This document shows, one piece after another, positions 11,010 through 26,451 of a stretch of 64,000 bases of DNA. The notes below the pieces were generated by a model. The model worked only from the letters and a program-made list of their open reading frames with translations. It was not told the origin of the DNA and ran no database searches. The stretch comes from Streptomyces sp. SAI-127 (GTDB lineage: Bacteria; Actinomycetota; Actinomycetes; Streptomycetales; Streptomycetaceae). Position 1 is the stretch's first letter. Every line of letters starts with the position of its first letter. Where the stretch lies: the NCBI RefSeq assembly GCF_029894425.1, contig NZ_JARXYJ010000001.1, positions 2,418,001 through 2,482,000 on the forward strand, read 5' to 3'. The position numbers and the translations under genes are program-made.

Positions 11010-11119
11010 CTCTCACCGAGAATCAGTGACGCCTCGCCCCTACGATGTCATTTGCCCCGTATACCCTGCTCCGTGATCACGCCGACATCGGCTCGACCCG
11101 AGAGCGAGAGGCAGCCACG

Positions 11120-12292
11120 ATGTCCGAGCGACGCGCCCGCCCCGCCGCGAAGAGCTCCGCCGGCAAGGGTTCCAGGAAGTCCGCCTGGCGCCGTGCCCTG
11201 ACCCCGCCTTCCGCCCCGCCTCAGGATCCGGCGCCAGGCGCTGAACCGCCCGCCCCCGAGACGGCCGAGCCGCCGAGCATCGTCCAGGCGGCTCTCTACC
11301 GCGACGGCGTGCGCGTCTCCTCCCCCGCGACGCTCGCGGACACCTTCCGCGAACTGCGCGAACAGCCGTCCGGAATGGCCTGGATCGGCCTGGCCCGCCC
11401 CACGGAGAGCGAACTCCTGTCCCTGGCCGCGGAGTTCGACCTGCATCCACTGTCCGTCGAGGACGCGATGGAGGCCCATCAGCGCCCGAAGCTGGAGCGC
11501 TACGGCGACACGCTCTTCGTGGTGCTCCGCGCGGCCCGCTATCTGGACGCCCCCGAGGAGGTCGACTTCGGCGAGCTGCACGTGTTCGTGGGCCCGGACT
11601 TCGTGATCACGGTCCGGCACGGTGCGGCCCCCGACCTCTCGGCGGTCCGCCACCGCATGGAGAAGACACCGGAGCTGCTGAGTCTGGGCCCCGAGGCCGT
11701 CCTCTACGCCATCCTGGACGCGGTGGTCGACGGCTACGCGCCGGTCGTCTCGGGCGTCCAGAACGACATCGACGAGATCGAGACGGAGGTCTTCCGCGGC
11801 GACCCGGAGGTCTCCCGCCGTATCTACGAACTCTCCCGCGAAATGGTCGAGTTCCAGCGCGCCACCCGCCCCCTGGTCGGCATGCTGCACGCCTTGATGG
11901 CCGGCTTCGCGAAGTACGGCACGGACGAGGAACTGCAACGCTATCTGCGGGACGTCGCCGACCACGTCACCCACACCAGCGAACGCGTCGACGGCTTCCG
12001 CCAGGCCCTCACCGACATCCTCACGGTCAACGCGACCCTCGTCACCCAGCAGCAGAACGCGGAGATGCGGGCGCTGGCGGAGGCGGGCTTCGAACAGAAC
12101 GAGGAGATCAAGAAGATCTCGGCTTGGGCGGCGATTCTGTTCGCTCCGACGCTGGTCGGGACGATCTACGGGATGAACTTCGACTCCATGCCTGAGCTGA
12201 GCTGGCGCTTCGGATACCCCTTCGCGATCGGCCTAATGGGGGTGGTTTGCGTCAGTTTGTACGTTATTTTCAAGCGACGGGACTGGCTCTGA
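11120..12292 (+). CDS. corA: CorA-family magnesium/cobalt channel
   Basis: This 390-residue protein is a divalent-metal channel of the CorA/MIT family in the cytoplasmic membrane. After a basic, proline-rich N-terminal extension (to about residue 55) comes the cytoplasmic alpha/beta domain (SVEDAMEAHQRPKLERYGDT is the family's conserved segment), then the long stalk helices (VQNDIDEIETEVFRGDPEVS onwards), and two membrane helices around the signature YGMNFDSMPE. The C-terminus is basic (IFKRRDWL). The ATG at 11120 follows GAGAGGCAGCC; an upstream in-frame ATG at 11045 would add 25 residues without a ribosome site. The last 183 bp are duplicated almost exactly at 24356-24538, so the present 3' end may have been supplied by an inserted element. 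Confidence 0.93.
   Translation: MSERRARPAAKSSAGKGSRKSAWRRALTPPSAPPQDPAPGAEPPAPETAEPPSIVQAALYRDGVRVSSPATLADTFRELREQPSGMAWIGLARPTESELLSLAAEFDLHPLSVEDAMEAHQRPKLERYGDTLFVVLRAARYLDAPEEVDFGELHVFVGPDFVITVRHGAAPDLSAVRHRMEKTPELLSLGPEAVLYAILDAVVDGYAPVVSGVQNDIDEIETEVFRGDPEVSRRIYELSREMVEFQRATRPLVGMLHALMAGFAKYGTDEELQRYLRDVADHVTHTSERVDGFRQALTDILTVNATLVTQQQNAEMRALAEAGFEQNEEIKKISAWAAILFAPTLVGTIYGMNFDSMPELSWRFGYPFAIGLMGVVCVSLYVIFKRRDWL
12108..12290 (+). repeat. Left copy of 183-bp direct repeat (corA 3' end; putative attL core)
   Basis: This copy matches 24356-24538 base for base except at two places (CCTAATGGG versus CCTGATGGG; GCGTCAGT versus GCGTTAGT). Identity begins mid-codon in the last part of corA and stops at the first base of the stop codon (TGA here, TAG in the other copy), so both encode the same last 60 or so residues of CorA. 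The arrangement is that of an element inserted at the 3' end of a gene, with the gene end regenerated. Confidence 0.85.
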
Positions 12293-12694
12293 ACTCGTCG
12301 CACCACGATCAGTCACTCTTCACTCTTTACCCTCGCATCATTCACGGTTCGCCCCAGAACCGGCCGTGGGGAGTCTCTGGGGAGAAGTGATGCGGTTGAT
12401 CTCGTCTCCCTGCTCCTACTAGTTCTCTGACCTGGGGTTTTGATACCCGTCGGGCGCTGGGGAGTATCTGGGGAGAATCGGCTGACTTGCACCGCGCCTA
12501 CCGGCATGGCATCGGGCCGCGGTAGGCGCCCGCCTTGCGACTTCCCCATAGCGGGACAGCGTCGGGAGGTATCGCAGACAGTGACATCAGTGCGAGGTGG
12601 ATCAGGGACTTCTAGTGGACGGCGCGATGGCACCAGCGGCGCAGGAGCGTACGGTCGTGGCCGGCGGCGAGCCGGCCGGCGCCAGTGGTGTCGC
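12293..12694. other. Gene-free left end of the island
   Basis: No coding sequence is supported in the 402 bases after the corA stop. The A/T content is higher than in the flanking genes, and the stretch holds the paired 20-bp direct repeats described separately. It may be the attachment-site arm region of a lost integrase. Confidence 0.4.
12367..12477 (+). repeat. Paired 20-bp direct repeats near the island's left end
   Basis: TGGGGAGTCTCTGGGGAGAA at 12367-12386 and TGGGGAGTATCTGGGGAGAA at 12458-12477 differ by one base and are 91 bp apart. Each is itself a double TGGGGAG. A related 12-mer, TGGGGAGAATCG, occurs at 12469-12480 and again at 24237-24248, near the right end. Repeats of this kind beside an attachment core suit arm-type sites of a tyrosine integrase; that is inference. 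Confidence 0.5.
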
Positions 12695-13010
12695 GATCGC
12701 CGCACTCGGCTTCTCTTGTGCGAACTGCTCGGCCGCCCTGAACCTGATCCCCTCGCGGACTTGCCGGCGCTCGTCTGACAGACCGCCTCCCTGCGCATCC
12801 TCATAACAGACGGCGTACCGCGGCGCCGACTGAGCGAACTTCGGGACTGGTCGGAACCACCGCTGCCTGTCGCCAGGGACAACGACCAGGCACGGCTGGA
12901 ATCCCGTGTGCTGCATGCCCTCGGCGAGGGACAAGGCCGCCCCCCTTTGGGCATCAGTGAAGTCCGCAATTGGACCCACGCCTGCTCGCACTGCCTGGAG
13001 GCGGGAGCAC
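12695..13010 (+). pseudogene. Decayed coding fragment, unidentified
   Basis: One plus-strand frame reads like protein through RTRLLLCELLGRPEPDPLAD and LPALV, hits a TGA at 12776-12778, then continues without interruption as QTASLRILITDGVPRRRLSE, LRDWSEPPLPVARDNDQARL and ESRVLHALGEGQGRPPLGIS. Codon third positions are mainly G/C in this frame. There is no start codon or ribosome site at the left end. The opposite strand also has an open frame over most of this stretch, so the strand is not certain. I do not recognise the family. It most likely remains from a gene of the island. Confidence 0.3.
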
Positions 13011-13077
13011 CAGCCGCAGCCAGGTCACCGTGGGATGGGACCGGGCCGGTTCCCCTCTGGGAAGCCGCACGTCATGG

Positions 13078-13599
13078 TCACTCCCGCCCGCCGATCAGCT
13101 CGGCCAGGGCCTGCGCACTCACCGAACCCGGATCCACCCGCGTCGCCCCCGCCACCGGACGATCGGCAACGACCGCGAAGCGGACGCCCCGCGGATGTCC
13201 GGCGGCGAGCGTGGTCGCCACGGCCGCGCGCGCCCCGGCCCCGGTGAAGACGATCGTCGAACAGCGCAGTTGCACCAGGGTGTTGACGTAGGTCGCGCCG
13301 TCCGCTTCGTCCGGGAGACGGTAGCGCTGCACGACCACGCTCGACGTACCGCCCGCGGCCAACTGTCGCATCGCCGCCCACGTCCTCGCGACGCCCGGAT
13401 CCGAGTCGGTGGACGTCAACAGACAAGCCCGGGTGGCGGTGTCGACATGGGAGACCGGCCGAGGTGGGCGGGCAGCCGCGGGGTCGGAGCCGAACAGCCA
13501 CACCAGAACCCCGATCACACCCGCCACAGCGGCGGCAGCAGCACCGAGCAAGGTCCACAGCCGAGTCCGGGAGAGATGAGGTGCGGTCGTCGCGGTCAC
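13078..13599 (-). CDS. Membrane-anchored BMP-like (periplasmic-binding-fold) protein
   Basis: The protein has 173 residues. A short basic start is followed by one membrane helix (LWTLLGAAAAAVAGVIGVLV at about 14-33). The extracellular part resembles half of a BMP-type substrate-binding protein: ACLLTSTDSDPGVARTWAAM, then VQRYRLPDEADGATYVNTLV, LRCSTIVFTG and VRFAVVADRPV. At about 130 residues outside the membrane it is too short for a two-lobed binding protein. The GTG at 13599 follows GAGGAAA; frames further upstream run inside the immunity gene. It lies 29 bases downstream of the immunity gene on the same strand, so rhs, immunity gene and this gene may be one transcript. Two cysteines could form a disulfide. 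Its role is unknown; a sensor or accessory immunity factor is conceivable. Confidence 0.65.
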   Translation of the reverse strand: MTATTAPHLSRTRLWTLLGAAAAAVAGVIGVLVWLFGSDPAAARPPRPVSHVDTATRACLLTSTDSDPGVARTWAAMRQLAAGGTSSVVVQRYRLPDEADGATYVNTLVQLRCSTIVFTGAGARAAVATTLAAGHPRGVRFAVVADRPVAGATRVDPGSVSAQALAELIGGRE

Positions 13600-13628
13600 G
13601 TGTTTCCTCTGCTCCACGAGTGCCGAGT

Positions 13629-14150
13629 TCAGTTCAGGGATTCGAAGAACGGGCGGTCGGGCGCGTGGTTGCGGGACCACACCGTCACGTCCTCGCCCCT
13701 GAGGTAGGCGAGCAACCACTCGCCGAACGTCATCTCGTGCAGAGTCCAGGCCGGGCTGTCGAGCTCCACCACCACGACCCGCCAAGGCGACGAGGGGGTG
13801 TCCGGAACGCGCAGGAAAACCCACTCCCCCGTCTTGGCCGAGGCCACCGGCATCAGCTCACCGGGGTTAGCCCCTGCCGGACTCGGCAGGTACTCCACCA
13901 TGTCTTCCTCACGGAAGAGTTCGAGATCTCCCCTGATCGATTCTCCGAGGTTGTGCAGAAGGTGACCGGCGGGATGCTCCAGATAGAGCTGACCGTTGAT
14001 TTCGACCGACCCGTAGGCATCCACGACCTCACGAAAGTCCGCCGGGAACTCGATGCCGAATTCCCGCTCCACTTCGATCCACGGCGCCGGGTCCGTCCAA
14101 TTGAATCCGGGCCGGCCCAACAAAGCTCGGATCTCCGCAATCACCGTCAT
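13629..14150 (-). CDS. SUKH (SMI1/KNR4) family immunity protein
   Basis: This 173-residue cytoplasmic protein has the SMI1/KNR4 signature: WIEVEREFGIEFPADFREVV followed by DAYGSVEINGQLYLEHP. That matches the conserved W-x-x-x-E-x-x-(F/L)-G-x-x-(F/L)-P-x-D-(Y/F) core of the SUKH superfamily. SUKH proteins are established immunity partners of secreted polymorphic toxins, most often nucleases. The gene starts 13 bases after the stop of the Rhs gene, on the same strand, and GAGG precedes the ATG at 14150. That is the standard place for a cognate immunity gene. It is expected to bind and block the C-terminal nuclease domain of the upstream protein. No signal peptide is present. The pairing is inferred from order and family. 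Confidence 0.88.
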   Translation of the reverse strand: MTVIAEIRALLGRPGFNWTDPAPWIEVEREFGIEFPADFREVVDAYGSVEINGQLYLEHPAGHLLHNLGESIRGDLELFREEDMVEYLPSPAGANPGELMPVASAKTGEWVFLRVPDTPSSPWRVVVVELDSPAWTLHEMTFGEWLLAYLRGEDVTVWSRNHAPDRPFFESLN

Positions 14151-14163
14151 TACATGACCTCTT

Positions 14164-17100
14164 CTAGCATGTCGAGCCGACTCCGGTTCTGGAGTTGATC
14201 ACAGTGCACGCATAAGTGTCCGTGATCCTGCCTTGGGGCCCGTACACGGCCATTCCCACCTGGACGGTCGTCGGAACGGCAGAGTGCGTGTCTCCGTATA
14301 CGGGAACGACCGACATGAACAGGCTGTTGTTACCGTTCAGGGCCTTCCAGCCGAAGGCTTCCACCTTGCTCGCCATCCGGGCGTTCGCCCGGGCGTTCAA
14401 CGCGACCAGGTTACGGACATCCTGACCGGTACCCTTGCCCCAATAACCTATCAGGTGACCGGCTTGCGGCCTTCCGCCGCCTGCCTTGATCTCCCCCATT
14501 CCGTCCGGCTCGACGGACGGTTCGCATTCGGGGCACTTCGGCAGACCGCCCGCTCCGGTACGCGACCTGCGATCGCTCTTGGTGAGGAATGCGATGGCGC
14601 CGGTCGCCCTGCATCCCTTGTTGCCCTGGTGGTCCGTGTATTCCTCCAGACCGCCGTAGATGCGCCCGCCGTCGATCAGGGGCGTGGCATCGCAGGAGTT
14701 CTTGCGCCCGTCGTCATCGTCGCCTCCGGTGCAGCCGCCGGTGACCACGCACACAGCGGCGGTGGTAAGCCCTGCCGCGACTGCCGAGACCGCGTTGCGG
14801 ACCGAATTGCCGATGTTGATACGGACCGTGGGTGGTTGTGCCGCGGACGAGATCGAGTGCACCTTCAGATGCGCCTTGCCGATCGACGCCGTGATCTTGA
14901 TGGCGTGGGCGCGGATCGCCGCGCGGCGAGCGGCCTCCGCGGCGGCGGCCGCAGCTGCGGCTGCCCGGGCGGCGGCCGCGGCCTCGGCCGCGCTGACACC
15001 GGTGCCGCCGCCTCCGCCGCAGTAACCGCAGTAGCCGCTGCCGCCGCCCCCACCTCCGCCACCGCCACCGCCCCCGCCCCCGGAGGACCGGCTGCCACTG
15101 CTGGTGCGGGTGCGGTTGTAGTGCTGCTGACAGGACATCGACCAGACCTCGGCGCACATGCCGTAGCTGCTCGTCGCGGCGCTGGAGTGGCTCGCGGCGG
15201 ACGAGGAGGCGTGGCTGTGGGACGAGGAACTGGACGAACCCCAGGAGGACAGCGAACTCAAGCCGTCGGAGATGCTCTGGGACAGCGCCGAGCAGTACTT
15301 GATGCAGGTGCCGATCAGAGCCGAGCCCAGCAGATAGGCCCCGTAGCCCTCGCCGATGCAGAGGTCCTCCAGGCAGTGCCCGCTCGGATCCGTCCCGGTC
15401 AGGGGCTCGTCGTTCGCGTACGCGTAGTCATTCGCGTTGACACTCTGCCCCACCGCCGAGTTGTCGACCGTGTCCGCGGAGTCGAAGCTCCCGGTCCCCG
15501 GCGCGTACCAGCGAGCGTGCATGTTCACGTCGCCGGTGCTCGCGTCCGTGAACTCGCTCTGGTAGCCGACGCTCCCGGTGAGCGTGGTGGAGAGAGTCGT
15601 GCCCCAGGGGTCGTAGCTCGCGGAACCGGTCAGCGCGGTGCCGGTGGCGGTGAACTGGCCGATGAGGTCGTCGTGCAGGTCGGTCAGGGCCAGGGTGGCC
15701 CCGCTCGCCGAGGACTCGCCGGTGAGGGCGCCGGAGGGGTCCCGGCTGTAGGCCGTGGTGCCGTCGGAAGCGAGGAGGTTGGCGGTGCCCGAGTAGGAGA
15801 GGTGCGCCGAGCCGACCGTGACGGCGCGGCCCAGCGCGTCGTAGGTGTAGGACATGGATCCGGCGGTGACCTGCTGGCCGTAGGCGTCGAAGGTGTACGC
15901 CGTCGAGTCCCTCGACGCGAGCGTGCCCCGGGCCGTGTAGGCGTAGGTGTGCGTCCCGTCCGAAGTCAGCTGGTCGCGCGCGTTGTAGGCGTACGTCGTC
16001 GAACCCGCCGTCAGCCGGTTGCCGTCGGCGTCGTAGGTGTAGCCGGTGGTCGTGGAGCCGGTGGTCCAGGAGGTGAGGCGGTTCGCGTAGTCGTAGGCGT
16101 ACGTGTTGGTGGAGGCGCCCTGTACTCCGGTCGTGGTCTTGCCGGTGAGGTTGCTGTTGTCGTCCCAGTCGTAGGCGACCGAGGCGACGGTGGCGCCGGA
16201 GGCGGTGGCGAGCGTGTCGGTCTTCTCGCGGTGCAGGGCGTCGTAGCCGAAGGTGCGTACGTCGCCCGAGCCGCCGTAGGTGACCGTCCTGGGCTGGGAC
16301 AGGCTGTTGTAGCCGTACGTCAGTGTCGTGCCGGTCGCCGCGTCCGTGTCTGTGCTGAGCCGGCCGTCGCTGTCGTAGGCGTAGGTGCTGGTGCCGGAGG
16401 CGTCGGTGCGGGTGAGCGGGGACTCGTCGGCGTTGTAGGTGAAGGACGAGCTGCCGGCCTGGCCCGAGGTGCTCAGGATGTCGCCGAGGGAGTTGGTGTC
16501 GTAGTACTCCCAGGTGTCGCCGACCGCCGACGCCACCAGGTCCCCGGTGAGGGAGTACTGGAAGGTGCGGGTGGCGCTGGGGGCGTCGGCTCCCGTGGCG
16601 CTCTGTCCGGTGAGGTCGTCGAGGGCGTCGTAGGTGTTGGTCGTCGTGACGCCGCCGGGGTCGGTCTGCGTCACGAGGCGTCCGCGCTCGTCGTAGGTGT
16701 AGCCGGTGGTCCGGTCGGCGGTGGAGGTGTAGCCGGAGACGGCCGGGACCTCCTTGCTCGCGGGCAGACCGAGCGCGTTGTAGGTGTGGTAGGTGGTGTC
16801 GCCGTTACCGTCGGTGTAGGCGGTCCGGTGTCCGGCTGCGTCGTAGCCGTACCGGGTGGTGATGGAGGCGTTGTCGCTGACCGGCTCGGTCTGCTGGGTG
16901 AGGTCGCCGAGGGCGTCGTACGCGTAACTCGTCGTGTGGTGGCGGGCGTCGGTGACGGTCTTCAGTAGACCGTTGTCCGTGTACGTCGCCGACGTCGACG
17001 TCAGCACGGTGCCGGCGGAGTCCAGGTTCGCGGTTGCGGTCCGGCGGCCGGCCGCGTCGTATCCGGCCGTCTGCGCGGTCTGGTCCGGCAGGAGCGTCTT

Positions 17101-20100
17101 GGTGACGTCGCCGTGCAGGTCGTAGGTGTACGTGGTGGTGTCGCCGGTGGTGTCGGCGACCGTGTGGGTGCGGCCCAGGGCGTCGTAGGTGTACTTCGCG
17201 GTGACCCCGCTGACGGAGGCGGTCTGCGCGACCAGCCCGGCGCTGTTGTACGTGCTGTCGGTCTCCTGCTTCGACTGGGCGCCGGCCGCGGTGTACACGT
17301 ACGCCCAGGTGCTGTTCGCGCGGCCGAGGTCGTCGTAGGCGAAGTGGGTGACGGCGCCGTACGGCGAGGTCTCGGTGAGGCGGTTGCCCGCGAGGTCGTA
17401 GGAGGAGGTGACGGTGCCGCGGGTGGCGGTGCCGGAGACCGTGATCGCCGGGTCGGTCTGCTTGACCAGGTCGCCCAGCTGGTCATAGGCATAGTCGGTC
17501 TCGCCCTTGGCGTCGGTCTCGCTGAGGACGTCGCCCTCGGCGTCGTAGGTCCAGGCGGTGGTGGCCGACGTGCCGTTGTACGAGGGCAGCGTGATGCCGG
17601 TCCTGCGGCCGTCGCGGTCGTAGGCGGTGGCGGTGATGTGGCCTTCGGGGTCCTCGGCCTCGGTGCGGTCGCCGAAGGTGTCGTAGCCGTCAAGGGTCAC
17701 CGGGTAGACGTCGGCGGTCGCGCCCGTGCCGGGCGTGGTCGCGGTGATCGCCGGGCTCGTGGTCGTGGTGGGGCGGCCGGCCTCGTCGTTGACGTAGGAG
17801 GTGACCTGGTTCTGCGGGTCGGTCGAAGTGACCCTCAGGCCGCGGTCGTCGTAGGTCGCCTTCGTGGTGAGGGTGAGGGAGCTGTCGACGTACTGGGCGG
17901 CGGACAGCGGGTCGCCCACCGCGTCATAGGTGTACGTCCACTTCTGGGCGGGGTTCCCGGCCGCGTCGGTCTGCGCGGACGTCAGGATGCGGGAGTCCGC
18001 GTCGAAGGTGTACGCGGTGCTCTGGGCCAGGCTGCCCGGGTCGGCCGTGGTGGCGGTGGTGCGGTCGGCGGCGTCCACCGCGTACGTCGTGGTGAGGGCG
18101 CCGTTGGCCGTCGTCCTGTCGGTGAGGTTGCCCGCGTCGTCGTAGGTGTCCTTCTCGTCGACGTAGGCGGTACCGGAGGAGCCGGTGCGGGTCGACTGCT
18201 CGACCAGGCCGTTGTCGTAGTAGCCGTAGGTGGTGGTCACGCCGATCGCGTCGGTGACCGTGTACAGCCGCCCGCCCGCGTCGTAGGTCCGCGTCTCCAG
18301 CAGCTTGGCGGCCGGGGCGTCGGCGATCTCGTCCGAGCCGGTGTAGTTGGTCAACGTGGTGGTCAGGGGGCTGCCGTCGGCGTCGTACGTGTACGCGTAC
18401 ACCTGGCCGTCGGGATCGGTCTCACCCGTCTTGTTGCCGTAACTGTCGTAGGTGTACGAGGTCGTGTACTGCTCGGGATCGGTGACGGTCTTCAGCTGTC
18501 CGAAGGCGTCGTACGTACGCGATGTCGTACGGGTGGCATCCCCGCCGGTGGTGTCGGAGACGACGCTGCTGAGCGTATTGCCGTCCGCGTCATAGGAGTT
18601 GGTCGTCAGGGCGGTGTGGACGACGGACTGGTTCACGGCGTTCGTGGTGCCGGGGTCCAGCTCGGTGAGCGTCCTGCCGAGGGCGTCGTAGGAGTAGCGG
18701 GTGACCAGGCCCGCGGGGTAGGTGTCGGAGACCTCGGTCTTCGTGAGCACCCGACCGAGGGAGTCGTAGGTGAAGCGGGTGATCAGGCCGAGCGGTGAAG
18801 TCTCCTGCGCCAGATCGCCGTTCGCGTAGTAGAGGTACGACGTCACCGCGCCGCCCGGCGTGGTCGTGGACGCGAGCAGACCCGCCGGGGCGACGGTTCC
18901 GGAGACGTAACCGGCCGTGCTGGAGGTCGTGTAGGTCTTCTTCGTCGTCAGCCCGGCGCTGTGGCCGGTGACGGCCGGAGTGGTCGAGGCCAGCAGATTG
19001 CCGTTGCCGTCATAGGTGTTGACGGTCCGGTAGGTGGTGTCCGTCGAGCTCGACGACCGTCCGTCGGACGAGGTGAGCAGCTGGTCGTTGCGCGGGTCCG
19101 TGTCGGAGTCGGCGTTCAGGTAGTAAGTGAAGTAAGACGTCGAACACTTGGAGGACGACTGGTCCTGGCAGGTGGTGCGGGAGACCACGTCACCGCGGGA
19201 GTTGTGGCCGGTGGTGGTCACGTCGCCGTTGCCGTCGGTCGTCGTGTAGAGGAAGCCCGAGGTGTCGTAGCCGTAGGAGGTGGTGGCACCCGTGCCGTCC
19301 GTGTCGGTCAGCATCCGGCCGCCGTTGGAGAGGTCGTAGGTGCTGGTCAGCGTGTGATGACCGGGGTCGGTCACAACCACCGACTCGGTGGCGATGGTGC
19401 CGGTGGACTGTTTGTAGGCGTTCCACTGACCCGCGACCTGAGCCGACGTCAGATTGTGGTCGTAGAAGGCGACTTCCGCGAGGGAGCCCTTGAAGTGGCT
19501 GACCTCGCCCGGGGAGCCGAGCCAGCTCTTGGCGAAGCCCGCGCCGATGTAGGTGTACGCGTTGGACTGGTCGTCGGGGGTGCCGGAGAAGGTGTCCTGC
19601 TTGGTGCCGTCGAGGAACAGTGCCTGGCTGTCGTCGTCGCAGCTGAGCACCACGTAGTGCCAGGCGTTGTCGGTGACCGTCCCCGTGGAGCCGAAGTCGG
19701 CGCTGCCAGAACCGCTCACGCTCCACCAGTGACCGTGCAGCTTGCCGTCCGAACCCACGTACAGGACCGGCGTCCAGGTGCCGGAGGCCGCCGTGGCCCC
19801 GTCGATCGGCACCGACTGGTCGCCGATCAGGACGCCGGAGGTGGAGGTCTTGAACCAGAGGCCCACCGACCGCTTGGTGCCGGAGTGCAGCAGCTCGGGC
19901 GGGACGGAGACATAGGAGTCGGTGCCATCGAAGGCGGCGGCGGTGCTCGCGGTGCTGTCCTTCGCGCTGAACGGCCCACTGACGCCGAGGGTGACGTTGT
20001 TGTACGTGCCGTCACCGCCGTTGACCTCGTCGGCCGCGTAGGTCGCGGACCCGTCGTCGTCGGCGTCGCCGAGCTGCCAGTACCCGGCGGGGTCGGCGCC

Positions 20101-23100
20101 GAGCACCGTACCCCGGAAGACGGCACTGGAGCCGGCCACCGTCGGGGTGCCGAGATGCCAGATGCCGCCGTGCTCGTCGGTGACGTCGGTCAGCCGGTCG
20201 GCCGCTGTGTCGTACGAGACCGCCGCGACGGTACGGCCGGCCGGGCTCGCCGCCTTGGTGAGCAGGGCCGCGCTCGCGGTGCCGCTCGCGTACAGGTCGC
20301 CGGCCTGCGAGGCGGTGATCGGGTGGCTGTAGAAGGAGACGTCGGCGAGGGAGCCGGTGAAGTAGCTGACGTCGCCCGGGGAGTCGATCCAGGAGGTGGC
20401 GAATCCGGCGCCGATGTACGTGTAGACGTTGTCCTGGTCGTCGGGGGTGCCGGACAAGGTGTCCTGCTTGGTGCCGTCCAGGTAGAGGGTCTGCGTGGCG
20501 CCGTCCGAGCTGAGCACCGCGTGGTGCCAGGTGTTGTCGGTGACGGTGCCGGTGGAGCCGAAGTCGGAGCTGCCGGAACCGCTCACGCTCCACCAGTGGC
20601 CGTGCAGCTTGTTGTCCGAACCCACGTACAGCACCGGCGTCCAGGTGCCCGAGGCCGTCGTGCCGCCGACCGCCTTGGACTGGTCGCCGATCAGGACGCC
20701 CTTCTTGGACGTCTTGAACCACAGGGAGACCGCCCTGGTCGTGCTGGCGTGCAGCAGCCCGGCCGGGACCTTGACGTACCCGGTGCCGGCGAGGGTCGTG
20801 GCAGTGGCCGAGGACCCGGTGAGCGGACCGGCGGCCGAGCCGAGCGTGGCGTTCTTGTAACTGCCCGCGTCCGTCTGCTCGTTGGCCAGCACGGAGGAGG
20901 CGGCCGTGGTGCTGCCGGCGGCCTCGCCGAGACGCCAGTAGCCGCTGGGGTCGGCGTCCAGCGCGGCGGACGGGTAGTTGGAGCCGTCGACGTAGGTGTA
21001 GGCGTAGCAGGAGGTCGACGCGGTGGCCGGGCTCGTGGCGGCCGGCGGGCAGACCGAGGTGAGGCGGTCGCCGGTGTAGCCGTAGGTCCACAGGGCCGCG
21101 GTGGAGGTGTCGCCGCTGGTGGCCGCGTCCGTGGTGACGGTCTGCACGTGGTAGTGGGCGGCACCTGACGGCTTGGCCCAGGTGAGGAACAGGGTGCGCC
21201 CGGAGACGTCGTTCTTGACGGTGCTCAGCCGGTGCGAGGAGTCGTAGGTGAGCGTCTCAGTGAGGCCCGCGTGTGTCTTGATCTGCGACAGCAGCCAGAT
21301 GTTCGTGCCGCCCGAGGTGCCGAAGGTGTACGTCGTTCCGGTCGTCTCGGTCAGCGAGTACCCGGCGGACAGTGCCTTGAAGGTGCCGTACGTGCCGATC
21401 GGCGGGGTGTATCCGGAGGAGGACCAGCCCCAGCGCTGCTGCTTGCCGCCGTCGTCGGTGACCACCACGCTCTTGGAACCGTCGTCGTCCATGACCGCGC
21501 GCATGTCCGCGAGCGCCGACCACCCCGCGCCGAAGGCCCCGGAGGTGCTGGTGTCCAGGGAGTTGTAGGAGCGGGTCGCATCCAGGGACGGGCCGACGGT
21601 GGAGACGGAGGCGTCGGTGGCAGCCGTGGTGAAGTTCCCGGCTTCCTCGTCATAGCCGTGCCCGCCGTTCTGCGCGAGCCGGGAGGCGATCAGGGGCTGT
21701 GCCACCAGGGTGGACAGGGACTGGGTGGCGCTGGTCGTGGTGGACCAGCCGTCGTTCGCGGAGACCGTCCAGTAGTACGACTTCGACCAGTTCAAGTCAC
21801 CCGACGGCACTGTCCACTTGGTGGAGGTCTGCCAGCCGGAGGTGTCGGTCTGCGTACCGGAGGAGGAGTAGATCGCGAAGTCGTACTTGAGCGGGGTGGT
21901 GGGCCAGGAGTCCGGATCGACCGCCTTCACCTGGAGCTGCGGACGCAGTGAGGGGGAGGTGAAGTTCGCCTTGGGATAGGTGTGTTCGATGTCTGGGGCG
22001 GAGTTCTTGCTGTACGTCACCGTGATGTAGGGCGCATGGCTGTCCACCTGGGAGGAGTCGAACTTCTTCCACTGGTTCGAGCTGGTCCCCGAGGAGAACA
22101 CCGACAGGCCGTAGTTGCTGGTCTGACCGAGGGCGATCTTCTGGAACCAGTCGGTGTCCAGGTCGGTGGTCTGCCACTGGCCGGTGCCCGTGGACACGGA
22201 CGTGTTGCCGCACACCGTGCCGGAGACCGTGCCCGACCAGGTGCCTATCGAGGAGGACGTGGCGGGCCGGTCCGACCAGGACTTCTGGCCGGTCACCCAC
22301 CACTGCTCGGTGATCGGCAAGACGTTGTACGAGGTGGACGAACTGCACGTGTACGCCCACACGTTGAACAGATGCAGGTCGGCGTCGGTGATCTGGTAGC
22401 CGTCGGTGTCCGGCAGTCCGAGGAACTTCATGAACGCCTGGCCGATGTACGAGCCGCCGTCCGGGGTGCCGACGCGCAGGATCGTGTCCGAGGAGTAGTC
22501 GGCGGTGTTCGGGTAGTAGACGTACGTCGTCAGGGTCTGCCCGGCGGTGGTCACCGACATCGTCGGGTCCACGGTGACCGGGAAGGCGATGTCGGAACCG
22601 GCGAGCCACGAGGGGTCCAGCGTCATCTTCACGGCGGGGGTGCCGTCGACCTCGGTGACGCTGTAGGTCATGGCCCAGTTGTCGTGGGACTCACCGGTCG
22701 TGGGGTCGACGTGGGAGTCGCGGGCGAAGGGCTGCGGGAGGGTGGCCATTACCGCGCCGTCGCCATCGACGAGGTCCACCGTGCCGTCGGAGGCGGTGGT
22801 CAGCTTCAGCCCCTTGAGGGTCATCGGGAAGACCCAACTGGTCGGCGCGTTCGCCGAGTTCAGGACGAGGGACTCCTTGACGCCGTCGTCGGTGGGGGTG
22901 AGCACGAGGTCGGTGTCGGGGAGTACGCCGTCGTACGTGACGGAGGAGCCCGAGGCGGTGCCGGTGACCGCGTCGGCGCCGGCCAGCGACCAGGACACCG
23001 ACTCGCTGCCGGAGAGGGTCAGGGTGGCCAGGTCGCCCTGGGCGGAGGTGCCGGAGGTGACGATCGGGCTGGGACTCGGGGTGTCGTCCGCTGCCGTCTG

Positions 23101-23706
23101 CCAGGTGAAGGCAGCCGGTTCGACGGATCCGCCGGTCTCCACCGTGCCGGTGGCGGGCGCGAAGGACACTCCGAGGGAGTTGGACCTCTCGTGCCAGCGG
23201 CCGTCGGAGCGCTTGGCCACGTCGGTGTCGATGGACCGCCAAGTGCCGGACTTGTCCTGGTAGTTCATCCGGTTCTCGGACATCTTGCGGGTGAAGGACC
23301 CGTCGGCGTTCTGGAAATAGTCGAACTTCGCCCCCGACTTGGCGGCGACCCGCTTGCTGGTCCTCGTGTCGAAGCCGACGGGCACCTTGCCGGACAGCGT
23401 CAGCTTCGCCGCGGTGCCGCTGGGCGCCCGGTCGGCGGCGAGCTGCCCCTTGCCCTTGCCCGGCGCCCGCCCGACGGGGTGCCCCTCGGCGGGCTTCGCC
23501 GCGCGGACGTCGGAGGCCGAGCCGGTCTTCGAGCGCGGGCCCGAACCGTCCTTGCCCGCCAGCCACTCCCACAGGTGGCCGAGCCCCGAGCCCACCGACA
23601 CGGACGGCTTCGTGGCCGCGTAGGCGGCGCCGCCCTCCTGCGCCCAGAAGCCCAGCAGCAACGACATCACGACGATCCACGCACGCCAGCGCGCCACCGG
23701 ACGCAT
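14164..23706 (-). CDS. Secreted Rhs/YD-repeat polymorphic toxin with two LamG domains and C-terminal nuclease-like domain
   Basis: The protein has 3180 residues. A signal peptide covers 1-31 (basic MRPVARWRAW, hydrophobic core, AAYAA). A DNRLRE-type beta domain lies at about 395-510, a fibronectin-like segment around 590-660, and two near-identical LamG domains at about 915-1140 and 1200-1430. Dozens of YD repeats (pattern YDxxGrL) run from about 1430 to 2700. The Rhs core (NMHARWYAPGTGSFDSADTV, ending in TDPSG) is at about 2715-2780. A Ser-rich tract, 14 consecutive glycines and an Ala-rich helix follow. The last ~180 residues contain QAGHLIGYWGKGTGQD and RNLVALNARANARM, the His (about 3084) and Asn (about 3099) pattern of Endonuclease_NS_2-type beta-beta-alpha-metal nucleases. 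The YD shell should encase the toxin for export and contact-dependent killing. The ATG at 23706 follows GGGGGG and starts the signal peptide; frames upstream run through the promoter. Confidence 0.9.
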   Translation of the reverse strand: MRPVARWRAWIVVMSLLLGFWAQEGGAAYAATKPSVSVGSGLGHLWEWLAGKDGSGPRSKTGSASDVRAAKPAEGHPVGRAPGKGKGQLAADRAPSGTAAKLTLSGKVPVGFDTRTSKRVAAKSGAKFDYFQNADGSFTRKMSENRMNYQDKSGTWRSIDTDVAKRSDGRWHERSNSLGVSFAPATGTVETGGSVEPAAFTWQTAADDTPSPSPIVTSGTSAQGDLATLTLSGSESVSWSLAGADAVTGTASGSSVTYDGVLPDTDLVLTPTDDGVKESLVLNSANAPTSWVFPMTLKGLKLTTASDGTVDLVDGDGAVMATLPQPFARDSHVDPTTGESHDNWAMTYSVTEVDGTPAVKMTLDPSWLAGSDIAFPVTVDPTMSVTTAGQTLTTYVYYPNTADYSSDTILRVGTPDGGSYIGQAFMKFLGLPDTDGYQITDADLHLFNVWAYTCSSSTSYNVLPITEQWWVTGQKSWSDRPATSSSIGTWSGTVSGTVCGNTSVSTGTGQWQTTDLDTDWFQKIALGQTSNYGLSVFSSGTSSNQWKKFDSSQVDSHAPYITVTYSKNSAPDIEHTYPKANFTSPSLRPQLQVKAVDPDSWPTTPLKYDFAIYSSSGTQTDTSGWQTSTKWTVPSGDLNWSKSYYWTVSANDGWSTTTSATQSLSTLVAQPLIASRLAQNGGHGYDEEAGNFTTAATDASVSTVGPSLDATRSYNSLDTSTSGAFGAGWSALADMRAVMDDDGSKSVVVTDDGGKQQRWGWSSSGYTPPIGTYGTFKALSAGYSLTETTGTTYTFGTSGGTNIWLLSQIKTHAGLTETLTYDSSHRLSTVKNDVSGRTLFLTWAKPSGAAHYHVQTVTTDAATSGDTSTAALWTYGYTGDRLTSVCPPAATSPATASTSCYAYTYVDGSNYPSAALDADPSGYWRLGEAAGSTTAASSVLANEQTDAGSYKNATLGSAAGPLTGSSATATTLAGTGYVKVPAGLLHASTTRAVSLWFKTSKKGVLIGDQSKAVGGTTASGTWTPVLYVGSDNKLHGHWWSVSGSGSSDFGSTGTVTDNTWHHAVLSSDGATQTLYLDGTKQDTLSGTPDDQDNVYTYIGAGFATSWIDSPGDVSYFTGSLADVSFYSHPITASQAGDLYASGTASAALLTKAASPAGRTVAAVSYDTAADRLTDVTDEHGGIWHLGTPTVAGSSAVFRGTVLGADPAGYWQLGDADDDGSATYAADEVNGGDGTYNNVTLGVSGPFSAKDSTASTAAAFDGTDSYVSVPPELLHSGTKRSVGLWFKTSTSGVLIGDQSVPIDGATAASGTWTPVLYVGSDGKLHGHWWSVSGSGSADFGSTGTVTDNAWHYVVLSCDDDSQALFLDGTKQDTFSGTPDDQSNAYTYIGAGFAKSWLGSPGEVSHFKGSLAEVAFYDHNLTSAQVAGQWNAYKQSTGTIATESVVVTDPGHHTLTSTYDLSNGGRMLTDTDGTGATTSYGYDTSGFLYTTTDGNGDVTTTGHNSRGDVVSRTTCQDQSSSKCSTSYFTYYLNADSDTDPRNDQLLTSSDGRSSSSTDTTYRTVNTYDGNGNLLASTTPAVTGHSAGLTTKKTYTTSSTAGYVSGTVAPAGLLASTTTPGGAVTSYLYYANGDLAQETSPLGLITRFTYDSLGRVLTKTEVSDTYPAGLVTRYSYDALGRTLTELDPGTTNAVNQSVVHTALTTNSYDADGNTLSSVVSDTTGGDATRTTSRTYDAFGQLKTVTDPEQYTTSYTYDSYGNKTGETDPDGQVYAYTYDADGSPLTTTLTNYTGSDEIADAPAAKLLETRTYDAGGRLYTVTDAIGVTTTYGYYDNGLVEQSTRTGSSGTAYVDEKDTYDDAGNLTDRTTANGALTTTYAVDAADRTTATTADPGSLAQSTAYTFDADSRILTSAQTDAAGNPAQKWTYTYDAVGDPLSAAQYVDSSLTLTTKATYDDRGLRVTSTDPQNQVTSYVNDEAGRPTTTTSPAITATTPGTGATADVYPVTLDGYDTFGDRTEAEDPEGHITATAYDRDGRRTGITLPSYNGTSATTAWTYDAEGDVLSETDAKGETDYAYDQLGDLVKQTDPAITVSGTATRGTVTSSYDLAGNRLTETSPYGAVTHFAYDDLGRANSTWAYVYTAAGAQSKQETDSTYNSAGLVAQTASVSGVTAKYTYDALGRTHTVADTTGDTTTYTYDLHGDVTKTLLPDQTAQTAGYDAAGRRTATANLDSAGTVLTSTSATYTDNGLLKTVTDARHHTTSYAYDALGDLTQQTEPVSDNASITTRYGYDAAGHRTAYTDGNGDTTYHTYNALGLPASKEVPAVSGYTSTADRTTGYTYDERGRLVTQTDPGGVTTTNTYDALDDLTGQSATGADAPSATRTFQYSLTGDLVASAVGDTWEYYDTNSLGDILSTSGQAGSSSFTYNADESPLTRTDASGTSTYAYDSDGRLSTDTDAATGTTLTYGYNSLSQPRTVTYGGSGDVRTFGYDALHREKTDTLATASGATVASVAYDWDDNSNLTGKTTTGVQGASTNTYAYDYANRLTSWTTGSTTTGYTYDADGNRLTAGSTTYAYNARDQLTSDGTHTYAYTARGTLASRDSTAYTFDAYGQQVTAGSMSYTYDALGRAVTVGSAHLSYSGTANLLASDGTTAYSRDPSGALTGESSASGATLALTDLHDDLIGQFTATGTALTGSASYDPWGTTLSTTLTGSVGYQSEFTDASTGDVNMHARWYAPGTGSFDSADTVDNSAVGQSVNANDYAYANDEPLTGTDPSGHCLEDLCIGEGYGAYLLGSALIGTCIKYCSALSQSISDGLSSLSSWGSSSSSSHSHASSSAASHSSAATSSYGMCAEVWSMSCQQHYNRTRTSSGSRSSGGGGGGGGGGGGGGSGYCGYCGGGGGTGVSAAEAAAAARAAAAAAAAAEAARRAAIRAHAIKITASIGKAHLKVHSISSAAQPPTVRINIGNSVRNAVSAVAAGLTTAAVCVVTGGCTGGDDDDGRKNSCDATPLIDGGRIYGGLEEYTDHQGNKGCRATGAIAFLTKSDRRSRTGAGGLPKCPECEPSVEPDGMGEIKAGGGRPQAGHLIGYWGKGTGQDVRNLVALNARANARMASKVEAFGWKALNGNNSLFMSVVPVYGDTHSAVPTTVQVGMAVYGPQGRITDTYACTVINSRTGVGSTC
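19425..20960 (-). repeat. Tandemly duplicated LamG-encoding segments inside the rhs gene
   Basis: The stretches at roughly 19425-20095 and 20290-20960 encode two laminin-G-like domains that share long identical peptides (GTWTPVLYVGSD, LHGHWWSVSGSGS, LDGTKQDT, YTYIGAGFA). The DNA is also very similar, for example GAACCGCTCACGCTCCACCA in both. This is a recent internal duplication, or one kept uniform by recombination. Confidence 0.75.
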
Positions 23707-23734
23707 CGGACCCCCCGTTCTTCGATCACGCCTT

Positions 23735-23748
23735 CTTGCAGCTGCAAG
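23735..23748. promoter_or_regulatory. 14-bp perfect palindrome upstream of the rhs start
   Basis: CTTGCAGCTGCAAG is fully self-complementary and lies 29 bases before the ATG of the Rhs gene. Its place in the short leader suits a repressor operator. No regulator gene lies in the island, so the binding protein would be encoded elsewhere. Confidence 0.45.
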
Positions 23749-23913
23749 TTGTAAGAGCCATGTGAAGGCGGGATCAAGATCCTTTAATGAGTGCGGGGAG
23801 AATGCACACCGGAACAAGGGGAAACACACAGCTTGCGACCCGCCATTCACCTCAGGTCAACCTACGGTCCCCCTAAGTGAGCGTTTGGTTCTCCGTTGTC
23901 TGTTTCGTTTGGC

Positions 23914-24243
23914 TTAGCTGTCGCGCCAGTTGGTGGTGGTTTCGTGGGCGAGGCGGTGGGTCATGAGGTTGATGGCTGCGATTTGGATCATGGCTGCTGA
24001 TCGGTGGGGGTGGGTTTCGTAGTCGCGGGCCAGGCGGCGGTGGTGCATGAGCCAGCCGAGGGTGCGTTCGATGACCCAGCGGCGGGGCTGGACGTGGAAG
24101 CCGCGGGTGGTGGGGTCGCGTTGGACGATTTCGAGGTCGATGCCGAGGTGGGCGGCTTCTTCGACGGCTTTGGTCTTGTAGCCGTTGTCGGCCCAGGCTT
24201 TGGTGATGGTGGGGTGGCGCTCGCGGACGTTGGTCGTGGGGAG
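23914..24243 (-). pseudogene. IS5-family (DDE) transposase remnant, C-terminal part
   Basis: The frame reads RERHPTITKAWADNGYKTKA, EEAAHLGIDLEIVQRDPTTR, FHVQPRRWVIERTLGWLMHH and RRLARDYETHPHRSAAMIQ before stopping. This is the C-terminal ~105 residues of an IS5/IS1647-type transposase, including the late DDE segment with the glutamate of WVIERTLGW and the RRLARDYE helix. The N-terminal half with the first catalytic aspartates is missing. Similarity ends near 24240, about 115 bp before the second corA repeat. It cannot be functional. It may have inserted into the island near its right end or been trapped during the island's formation. Confidence 0.8.
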
Positions 24244-24355
24244 AATCGACGGCGCAACACGGCACGATTCTGAAAGACGCCGAAAGATCCACCTGTGCAC
24301 GTCAGAGGCAAGGATGAACGCATCGACGCAGGTCATGGCGTCCCGGTAGACAACT

Positions 24356-24540
24356 TCAAGAAGATCTCGGCTTGGGCGGCGATTCTGTTCGCTCCGACGC
24401 TGGTCGGGACGATCTACGGGATGAACTTCGACTCCATGCCTGAGCTGAGCTGGCGCTTCGGATACCCCTTCGCGATCGGCCTGATGGGGGTGGTTTGCGT
24501 TAGTTTGTACGTTATTTTCAAGCGACGGGACTGGCTCTAG
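24356..24540 (+). pseudogene. corA 3'-end fragment (right direct repeat; putative attR core)
   Basis: This 183-bp copy of the last codons of corA plus a TAG stop encodes the KKISAWAAILFAP segment, the GMN motif, the last membrane helix and FKRRDWL. It is preceded by unrelated sequence in the same frame, with no ribosome site, so it is not an independent gene. Under the insertion model this is the original chromosomal corA terminus, displaced 12 kb from its gene and now lying 103 bp before mutA. E. coli has an analogous fragment, icdC, beside element e14. Confidence 0.85.
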
Positions 24541-24643
24541 AAGATGCCGCACCCCGTGGAGACCGGGGTCACAATCTCGTAGAGGGCAAGGTCACAGCCG
24601 TGCCCCCTGCTGCTCCTTTGGTGGTCTGGCCTAGCATCCGAGC

Positions 24644-26451
24644 ATGACGGTCCTGCCTGACGACGGGCTCTCGCTGGCCGCCGAGTTCCCTGACGCGAAC
24701 CTTGAACAGTGGCACGGCCTGGTGGCGGGTGTCCTGCGCAAGTCGGGCAAGGAAGTCTCCGGCACGGCAGCTGAGGACGCCCTGTCCACCGCGCTCGAGG
24801 ACGGGCTGCGCACCCGCCCCCTGTACACCGCGCACGATGCCGCACCCGACCCCGGTTTCCCCGGCTTCGCACCCTTCGTGCGCGGCGCCCGCGCCGAGGG
24901 GAACACCACCGGCGGCTGGGACGTACGGCAGCGGCACGCGGTCGCCGACAACACCGCGGTGCTCACCGACCTGGAGAACGGCGTCACCTCGCTGTGGCTG
25001 GTCGCGGGCGAGGGCGGCATCCCGGTCGCCTCGCTCGGCAAGGTCCTCGACGGCGTCTTCCTCGACCTCGCGCCCGTCGCCCTGGACGCGGGCAGCCAAG
25101 TCGCCTCCGCCGCACAGGAGTTGCTGCGGCTCTACGACGAGCGCGGCATCGACAGGAAGGCCGCGCGCGGCAGCCTCGGCGCCGACCCGCTGGGCCACGA
25201 GGCACGTACGGGCCAAGCCCTGGACTTCGCGCCGGTCGTCCCGCTCGCCCGCCGGTGCGCCGAGGAGTACCCCGGGCTGCGGGCGCTGACGGTGGACGCG
25301 CTGCCGTACCACGAGGCCGGCGGCTCGGCCGCGCAGGAACTGGGCGCCTCGATCGCCACCGGAGTCGCCTATCTCCGTGAGCTGACCGAGGCCGGACTGA
25401 GTGTGGAACAGGCCTGCGCACAGCTGGAGTTCCGGTACGCGGCGACCGCCGACCAGTTCCTGACGATCGCCAAGCTGCGGGCCGCGCGCCGGCTGTGGGC
25501 GCGGGTCGCCGAGGTGTGCGGGGCGCCCGGTGCCGGAGCGCAGGCGCAGCACGCCGTGGTCTCGCCGGTGATGATGACCCGCCGCGACCCGTGGGTGAAC
25601 ATGCTGCGCGCGACGATCGCCACCCTGGCCGCCGGGGTCGGCGGGGCCGACGCCGTCACCGTGCTGCCCTTCGACCACGCGCTCGGTCTGCCGGACGCGT
25701 TCGCCCGGCGGATCGCCCGCAACACCTCGACGATCCTGGTCGAGGAGTCGCATCTGTCCCGGGTGATCGACCCGGCGGGCGGCTCCTGGTACGTGGAGCG
25801 GCTCACCGACGAACTCGCCGAGGCCGCCTGGCAGTTCTTCCGGACGATCGAACGCGACGGCGGCCAGGCGGCCGTCCTGCGCTCCGGCCGCCTCCGCACG
25901 GACCTGGCGACGACGTGGGCGCAGCGCTCCAAGAAGCTCGCGACGCGCCGCGAACCCGTCACCGGCGTCAGCGAGTTCCCGTTCCTGTCCGAGAAGCCGG
26001 TCGTGCGGGACCCCGCCCCCGAACAGCCGGCGGGCGGTCTGCCCCGCGTCCGGCGCGACGAGGCGTACGAGGAGCTGCGCGCCCGCTCCGACGCCCACCT
26101 CGCGGCGACCGGGTCCCGGCCGCGGGTCTTCCTGGCCGCGATCGGCCCCGCCGCCGCCCACACCGCGCGCACGACGTTCGCCGCCAACCTCTTCCAGGCC
26201 GGCGGTATCGAGCCCGTCACCGAGGGCACCTTCGAGGAGAGCGGCGCCACCGAGGTCTGCCTGTGCTCCAGTGACGCGCTGTACGAGGAACGGGCCGAGG
26301 ACGTCGTACGGACCCTGAAGGCTGAAGGCGCGCGGCACGTGTTCCTCGCCGGGCGGCCCGGGCAGTACTCCGGCGTGGACTCCTACGTCTTCGCGGGCTG
26401 CGACGCCGTCGCCGTGCTCACCGCCACCCTCGACCGCATGGGAGTGTCCTG

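Follow-up and report, generated by a model that had tools for sequence, protein, structure and literature searches.

A probable integrase-less remnant of an integrative element at the 3' end of corA in Streptomyces sp. SAI-127

The stretch of DNA analysed here (hereafter the window) comprises 64,000 nucleotides of Streptomyces sp. SAI-127 (contig NZ_JARXYJ010000001.1, positions 2,418,001 to 2,482,000) and contains, between the magnesium-channel gene corA and mutA, an island bounded by two copies of the corA 3' end. These copies form a 183-nt direct repeat (12108-12290 and 24356-24538), in which two of 183 bases differ (12235, A/G; 12253, C/T), corresponding to 98.9% identity. The left copy completes an intact corA (415 amino acids (aa), stop TGA), and the right copy encodes identical CorA residues, in frame, up to the stop TAG. 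The near-perfect repeat with its two differing bases, as well as the shared CorA end with different stop codons, had been described in a first-pass annotation of this DNA, and both are borne out by the sequence. Since the three further matches to the repeat stretch in the rest of the 10.7-Mb genome, all at corA paralogues, are 73-76% identical over 84-111 bases, the repeat is real and far beyond chance. The corA fragment stops 13-18 bp ahead of a conserved leader of mutA, which itself starts at 24644. The features of the site, including the putative left and right attachment sites (attL, attR), are the following:

11045..12292, plus strand: corA, the target gene, its last ~57 codons probably element-borne (PF01544, E 3.6e-61; body 93.6-97.5% and end 83.1-86.0% identical to seven relatives)
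12108..12290, plus strand: left copy of the 183-bp repeat, putative attL side with the regenerated corA end (repeat alignment; genome search)
24356..24538, plus strand: right copy of the repeat, a corA 3'-end fragment (putative attR) with the stop TAG at 24538-24540 (sequence, repeat alignment)
24559..24643, plus strand: conserved mutA leader, right boundary of the variable zone (89.5-95.3% identity over 85-91 bp in six clade loci)

The repeat begins within a putative attachment core, and conserved arms stand on the island side of both copies:

12104..12120, plus strand: putative attB-derived core GAGATC-AAGAA-GATCTC, a perfect 6-bp inverted repeat with a 5-bp spacer
12297..12487, plus strand: P' arm of type B, 3' of corA, with GGGGAG repeats at 12367, 12458 and 12469 (nhmmer E 1.8e-41; model built from six other genomes, window excluded)
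24235..24369, plus strand: P arm adjoining the core on the distal side of the island, the final 14 bases coinciding with the start of the repeat copy (nhmmer E 4.1e-33; model built from 15 other fragments, window excluded)

Allowing up to three mismatches, the core motif has two matches in the window, with 0.05 expected, and eight successive wobble positions (12097-12118) each keep a single base in 69 to 77 of 77 genomes. The inverted repeat at 12104-12120 would fit an attB site, and TCAAGAAGATCTC is retained on the attR side; the crossover presumably took place within 12108-12120. Four copies of the motif TGGGGAGWMT were counted in the window (0.32 expected), every one inside the arms, and the GGGGAG repeats are putative integrase-binding sites. 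Two kinds of P' arm follow corA, type A, which adjoins an integrase gene, and type B, the kind found in the window, and the P arms are similar in islands of both types. In their alignment, which comprises 19 distinct fragments after two duplicates were dropped from 21 entries, a P-like arm adjoins the same core in 18, the window included, the exception being L088.

Counting the window, no fewer than 20 of 392 genomes of the genus have two corA ends, which lie on the same contig in 16 (3 to 191 kb apart) and on different contigs in four; this count is a lower bound, two candidates having been scored per genome. A repeat confined to this one locus, which the first-pass annotation had named as an outcome that would speak against an island, is therefore clearly not what is seen, and because so many genomes carry two ends, the corA 3' end is an integration hotspot. 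Both copies were fetched from 13 other genomes, 12 of which hold one intact corA and one fragment, starting at codon 334-356 (tblastn) and sharing one common core in the alignment. In the 13th (G279), two corA-end fragments are situated 3.3 kb apart (L045:1649-1831 and L045:4950-5130), with the corA body ~19 kb beyond, a pair that looks like tandem accretion. Other cargo, which the first-pass annotation had suggested looking for, is found between the corA end copies of other genomes, and it differs between the islands examined; L040, for instance, has a helicase-nuclease, and L036 has an MFS transporter. The prevalence of the arms was determined in a sample picked by the corA body and not by the site, namely the window and 77 of the 79 genomes nearest in body (G279 and G391 were omitted). 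The position of the CorA end is the same in 78 of 78 sampled genomes, and an attL arm (E < 1e-10) is present in 32 of them, 20 of type A and 12 of type B, with weak matches in five more. Half of the arm carriers (16/32) had been used to build the models; among the 62 genomes not used for this, the arm is present in 16.

An integrase, which the first-pass annotation had proposed to look for in such islands, lies beside corA ends in relatives. It is a tyrosine recombinase of ~410 aa (PF00589, E 3.1e-14), whose gene is convergent with a corA end and usually ~300 bp away from it. In G068 and G182 it is encoded downstream of corA, and it is represented by pieces in other islands. Among 48 loci taken from named genomes, the longest matching segment reaches at least 76% identity to this recombinase in 29 (in some, just a piece of 53-160 aa), and a convergent corA end is found 170-1980 bp away in 21 of these 29 close loci; among the 19 loci below 73% identity there is one such case, a piece. 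The type A element of G068 has an HTH_17 gene directly upstream of the integrase, whose product weakly matches an excisionase (22.4 bits, below the cut-off of 28.8); a gene with a MobA/VirD2-type relaxase domain lies ~5 kb from the integrase. Neither a coupling protein nor a type IV secretion gene was seen among the selected genes scanned in type A elements.

The corA ends themselves carry a footprint of exchange. Bodies and ends were compared in 77 of the 78 genomes (G024, which was not aligned, was left out), yielding 79 pairs with bodies at least 94% identical, and in these pairs third-position identity is 72.4% in the end, compared with 82.9-90.7% in eight sham body windows. In all 202 pairs with bodies of at least 92%, the end is less similar than the body, and an earlier, unevenly chosen set gave a similar picture. 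A strong change point is present in 46 of the 79 pairs, located at 12104-12140 in 29, at 12141-12200 in 14, later in two and earlier in one. A corA paralogue served as control in 30 genomes: in the window clade (8 genomes, 28 pairs), its third-position identity is 91.7% in the body and 92.5% in the end, and that of corA 87.2% and 66.7%, respectively. Likewise, pairs with bodies of 96% or more have values of 91.8 and 92.1% in the paralogue (31 pairs) and of 93.0 and 72.6% in corA (11 pairs). Similarity between ends is 7.0 points higher when both genomes have the same arm type than when the types differ (31 genomes; 0/5000 permutations), and for the corA bodies this value is -0.02 points (2582/5000 permutations). 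Integration thus appears to swap the last ~57 CorA codons, and replacement of the ends seems to have recurred among related genomes.

A plain duplication, or homologous recombination by which the corA end was copied or transferred without the repeat being an attachment site, would account for part of this, given that arm and end are neighbours, which recombination further downstream could also link. The high identity of the two window copies is likewise what gene conversion would give; it is matched by one other pair of 14, that of G157, the remaining 13 being 72.1-93.4% identical, and a recent insertion from a similar element would explain it equally well. We nevertheless regard general recombination as very improbable, in view of the P-like arm at the same core in nearly all fragments, the integrase at the corA-end site in relatives and the change points clustering at the core, a boundary which speaks for an integrase.

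We therefore read the island, with a probability of roughly 0.9, as an integrase-free remnant of an element that integrates site-specifically into the 3' end of corA. The sequences themselves show the paired gene ends, both arms, the integrase next to corA ends of relatives and the footprint of replacement. According to the proposed mechanism, a tyrosine integrase would recombine the core of attP with its counterpart in corA, located around TCAAGAAGATCTC (12108-12120), and attP would itself carry a version of the last ~57 corA codons. The resident corA would then be completed by the end of the element (attL), followed by arm P', and the old corA end would be displaced to the far side as a fragment with arm P ahead of it (attR). 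The e14/icd-like layout suggested in the first-pass annotation is supported in this way, by paired corA ends with other cargo as well as by the integrase in relatives. The window copy is filed as a remnant because the cognate integrase is absent from its island; it probably is decayed, and we infer that its integrase was lost rather than originally absent.

Several observations weigh against this reading, a first group of which concerns the integrase. A tblastn search of the window finds neither an integrase of the corA-end family nor a remnant of one, the genome of the window has no match to the integrase at E <= 1e-60, and no integrase is present in the fetched stretches of 12 of 12 type B sites, which are 3 to 20 kb long (64 kb for the window) and do not always span the whole island. 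Moreover, the fetched flank is without a corA end in eight of the 29 close integrase loci; in one of these eight, L098 (whose coordinates match G277), corA is ~4.6 kb off, and in G362 it is ~10 kb from the integrase. Type B islands might never have had an integrase of their own, having been moved by accretion or by a type A integrase acting in trans, which would make the window a mobilisable element and no wreck. Such an origin, which we hold to be possible but rather unlikely, agrees with the presence of an integrase (pieces counted) at 13 of 20 type A versus 0 of 12 type B sites, with the likeness of the P arms across both island types and with a pair of genes recurring beside attL in four type B genomes. 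It is at odds with the lack of a close integrase in the genome of the window, with an insertion sequence (IS) remnant occupying the place of the distal P repeats seen elsewhere, and with L122, a locus outside the prevalence sample, in which a type B-like arm occurs together with an integrase remnant; the partial coverage of type B islands also tells against it.

A second group comes from the paralogue. In pairs with bodies of 94-96%, its third-position identity falls from 87.9 to 80.6% (26 pairs), that of corA from 87.0 to 72.3% (68 pairs), and in 210 wider pairs the respective values are 84.7 to 78.8% and 78.6 to 66.7%. Strong change points are also found in 13 of 57 paralogue pairs, 13 to 122 bases beyond the corresponding position, the median change-point strength being 4.4 in the paralogue versus 9.2 in corA. 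Because the paralogue end also diverges in wider pairs, the drop of corA outside the clade may in part be ordinary divergence, but the drop within the clade is not explained by it. Rapid or relaxed evolution at the 3' end of corA, in place of any replacement, would be in line with this divergence of the paralogue end outside the closest pairs; it is nonetheless the least probable of the explanations considered and hardly credible, as the drop in corA is strong at third positions, begins at the core, is missing from the paralogue in the window clade and is tied to the arm type.

Finally, the first-pass annotation had predicted strains in which corA is followed directly by mutA, taking a lack of such adjacency as a point against the island. 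In none of the six relatives with both genes on one contig is corA directly next to mutA, nor was a clean empty site seen among them, the interval being 4.9 to 18.2 kb. The prediction thus failed and the objection stands in part, but at least one of the six sites is not empty, because G140 has an attachment arm, of type B, in this interval; G188 has a weak trace of such an arm, and the clade loci yielded no P arm. The five intervals compared whole mostly differ in content, with 4.3 kb common to G291 and G140 and 1.8 kb common to G234 and G200. In G200, a second, diverged corA is located directly downstream of and convergent with corA (L138:1810-2688). mutA was rejected as a general right flank: among the flanks compared, sharing is limited to the window and L040 (mutA side) and to a 54-bp stretch of L038/L050.

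As for the cargo of the window island, an accessory content had been postulated, and the following genes were indeed found between the copies:

13629..14150, minus strand: SUKH-family gene, probable immunity partner (PF14568, E 6.6e-8)
14164..23850, minus strand: RHS/YD-repeat protein of 3228 aa with a C-terminal nuclease-like domain (PF05593, E 2e-56; Rhs_assc_core, E 2.4e-13)
23917..24235, minus strand: IS5-type transposase remnant, limits approximate (PF13586, E 2.8e-8, and NF033580, E 1.6e-17, on the open reading frame (ORF) 23917-24549)

The last 169 aa of the RHS/YD-repeat protein match Endonuclea_NS_2 (E 1.1e-6). The NF033580 match of the transposase remnant (63.9 bits) is under its cut-off of 110, and the remnant is situated left of 24235, where many other islands hold distal P-arm repeats in the alignment. 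Pfam has no match for the four ORFs scanned in the interval from corA to the SUKH gene, and none of the scanned ORFs of the island encodes an integrase, an excisionase or a relaxase.

Cargo of other islands includes, in L040 (5866-10512), a large helicase with an MTES_1575 nuclease domain, whose best match in PADLOC is PDC-S37, and in the element of G182 a 1496-aa nSTAND1/WD40-type protein (L157:12332-16819). In four genomes, a gene for a 130-aa protein (no Pfam match) followed by an AbiEii-type nucleotidyltransferase gene is found beside the type B attL arm (L040:2204-3270, L134:15673-16736, L039:5954-6935 and L149:2164-3227), the AbiEii gene being in pieces in L039 and L149; the count applies to the subset of loci searched for this pair. 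A 339-aa protein without Pfam match adjoins attR in two islands (L040:13274-14290 and L037:2217-3233, 96% identical). It was considered as the type B integrase and rejected, having no Pfam match and, in its L040 copy, no PADLOC match.

Other attachment sites and carriers were likewise discarded. The window has no tRNA gene, and of 22 related-integrase loci whose flank lacks a corA end, one contains such a gene. A phage carrier was rejected, since the corA end matches three phage-collection records, all from Salmonella, over 45% of its length, and so was a plasmid carrier, the 38 matching records including three over at least 80% of the end at 75-79% identity, of which the sole annotated one is CorA. 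Integrase matches in the phage and plasmid collections are all below 60% identity, and none was confirmed in viral contigs.

In the literature searched by title and start of the abstract, subscription papers and supplements aside, neither corA as an integration site in Streptomyces nor this site together with its integrase family was found in print. Within the portions consulted, the main text of PMC9513070 (supplement aside) mentions neither corA nor magnesium nor a transporter, PMC3218068 neither corA nor magnesium, and the sole corA match in PMC12884075 is a place name. Together with the paralogue control, the data suggest that a single mobile-element family has been the recurrent source of new ends for a housekeeping channel gene, because of which corA ends would be misleading for phylogeny; the question of channel function is raised as well. 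The predicted attB core could serve site-specific vectors. More tentatively, and with some doubt on our side, the C-terminal part of Streptomyces CorA (region of the GMN motif, loop and second membrane helix) might be an exchangeable cassette supplied by a family of integrative elements comprising two or more lineages, an integrase-bearing type A and a non-autonomous type B moved in trans by a type A integrase. Insertions would then change the residues after MPEL, and mobile elements would repeatedly re-edit a core ion channel.

Among the known systems, cis-mobilisable elements (CIMEs) are stretches of DNA flanked by attachment sites and devoid of recombination and transfer genes of their own. 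The window resembles them, its arms flanking DNA without integrase (tblastn) or transfer genes (scanned ORFs), and its mobilisation would be hypothetical. Integrative mobilisable or conjugative elements with a relaxase are approached by the type A element of G068, with its integrase, HTH_17 and relaxase-domain genes, and differ from the window island, whose scanned ORFs include no integrase, excisionase or relaxase. Actinomycete integrative and conjugative elements (AICEs) are recognised by integrase, Rep and TraB, none of which appeared in Pfam scans of the main ORFs of the window island. Decayed AICEs of Streptomyces are, in the part of the source consulted, described as remnants between direct repeats, with cargo, a truncated or lost integrase and accretion at one site, in tRNA genes, rlmN and a glycosyltransferase gene as the targets named there (PMC9513070); the window likewise is a remnant between direct repeats, free of integrase. 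Another close parallel is e14 of E. coli, which, according to the part of the source consulted, integrates in the 3' part of the protein-coding gene icd and supplies the gene end, leaving a pseudo-end of 163 bp on the opposite side (PMC6379469). Target gene and host are different here, the corA ends have apparently been replaced repeatedly, and the cognate integrase, lacking in the window copy, is present in the type A relatives. The window has, however, the direct repeat of the target 3' end with one copy completing the gene as well as conserved element-side arms beside both copies, and as far as the e14 source can be compared, its element likewise supplies the gene end, with a duplicated pseudo-end on the other side.

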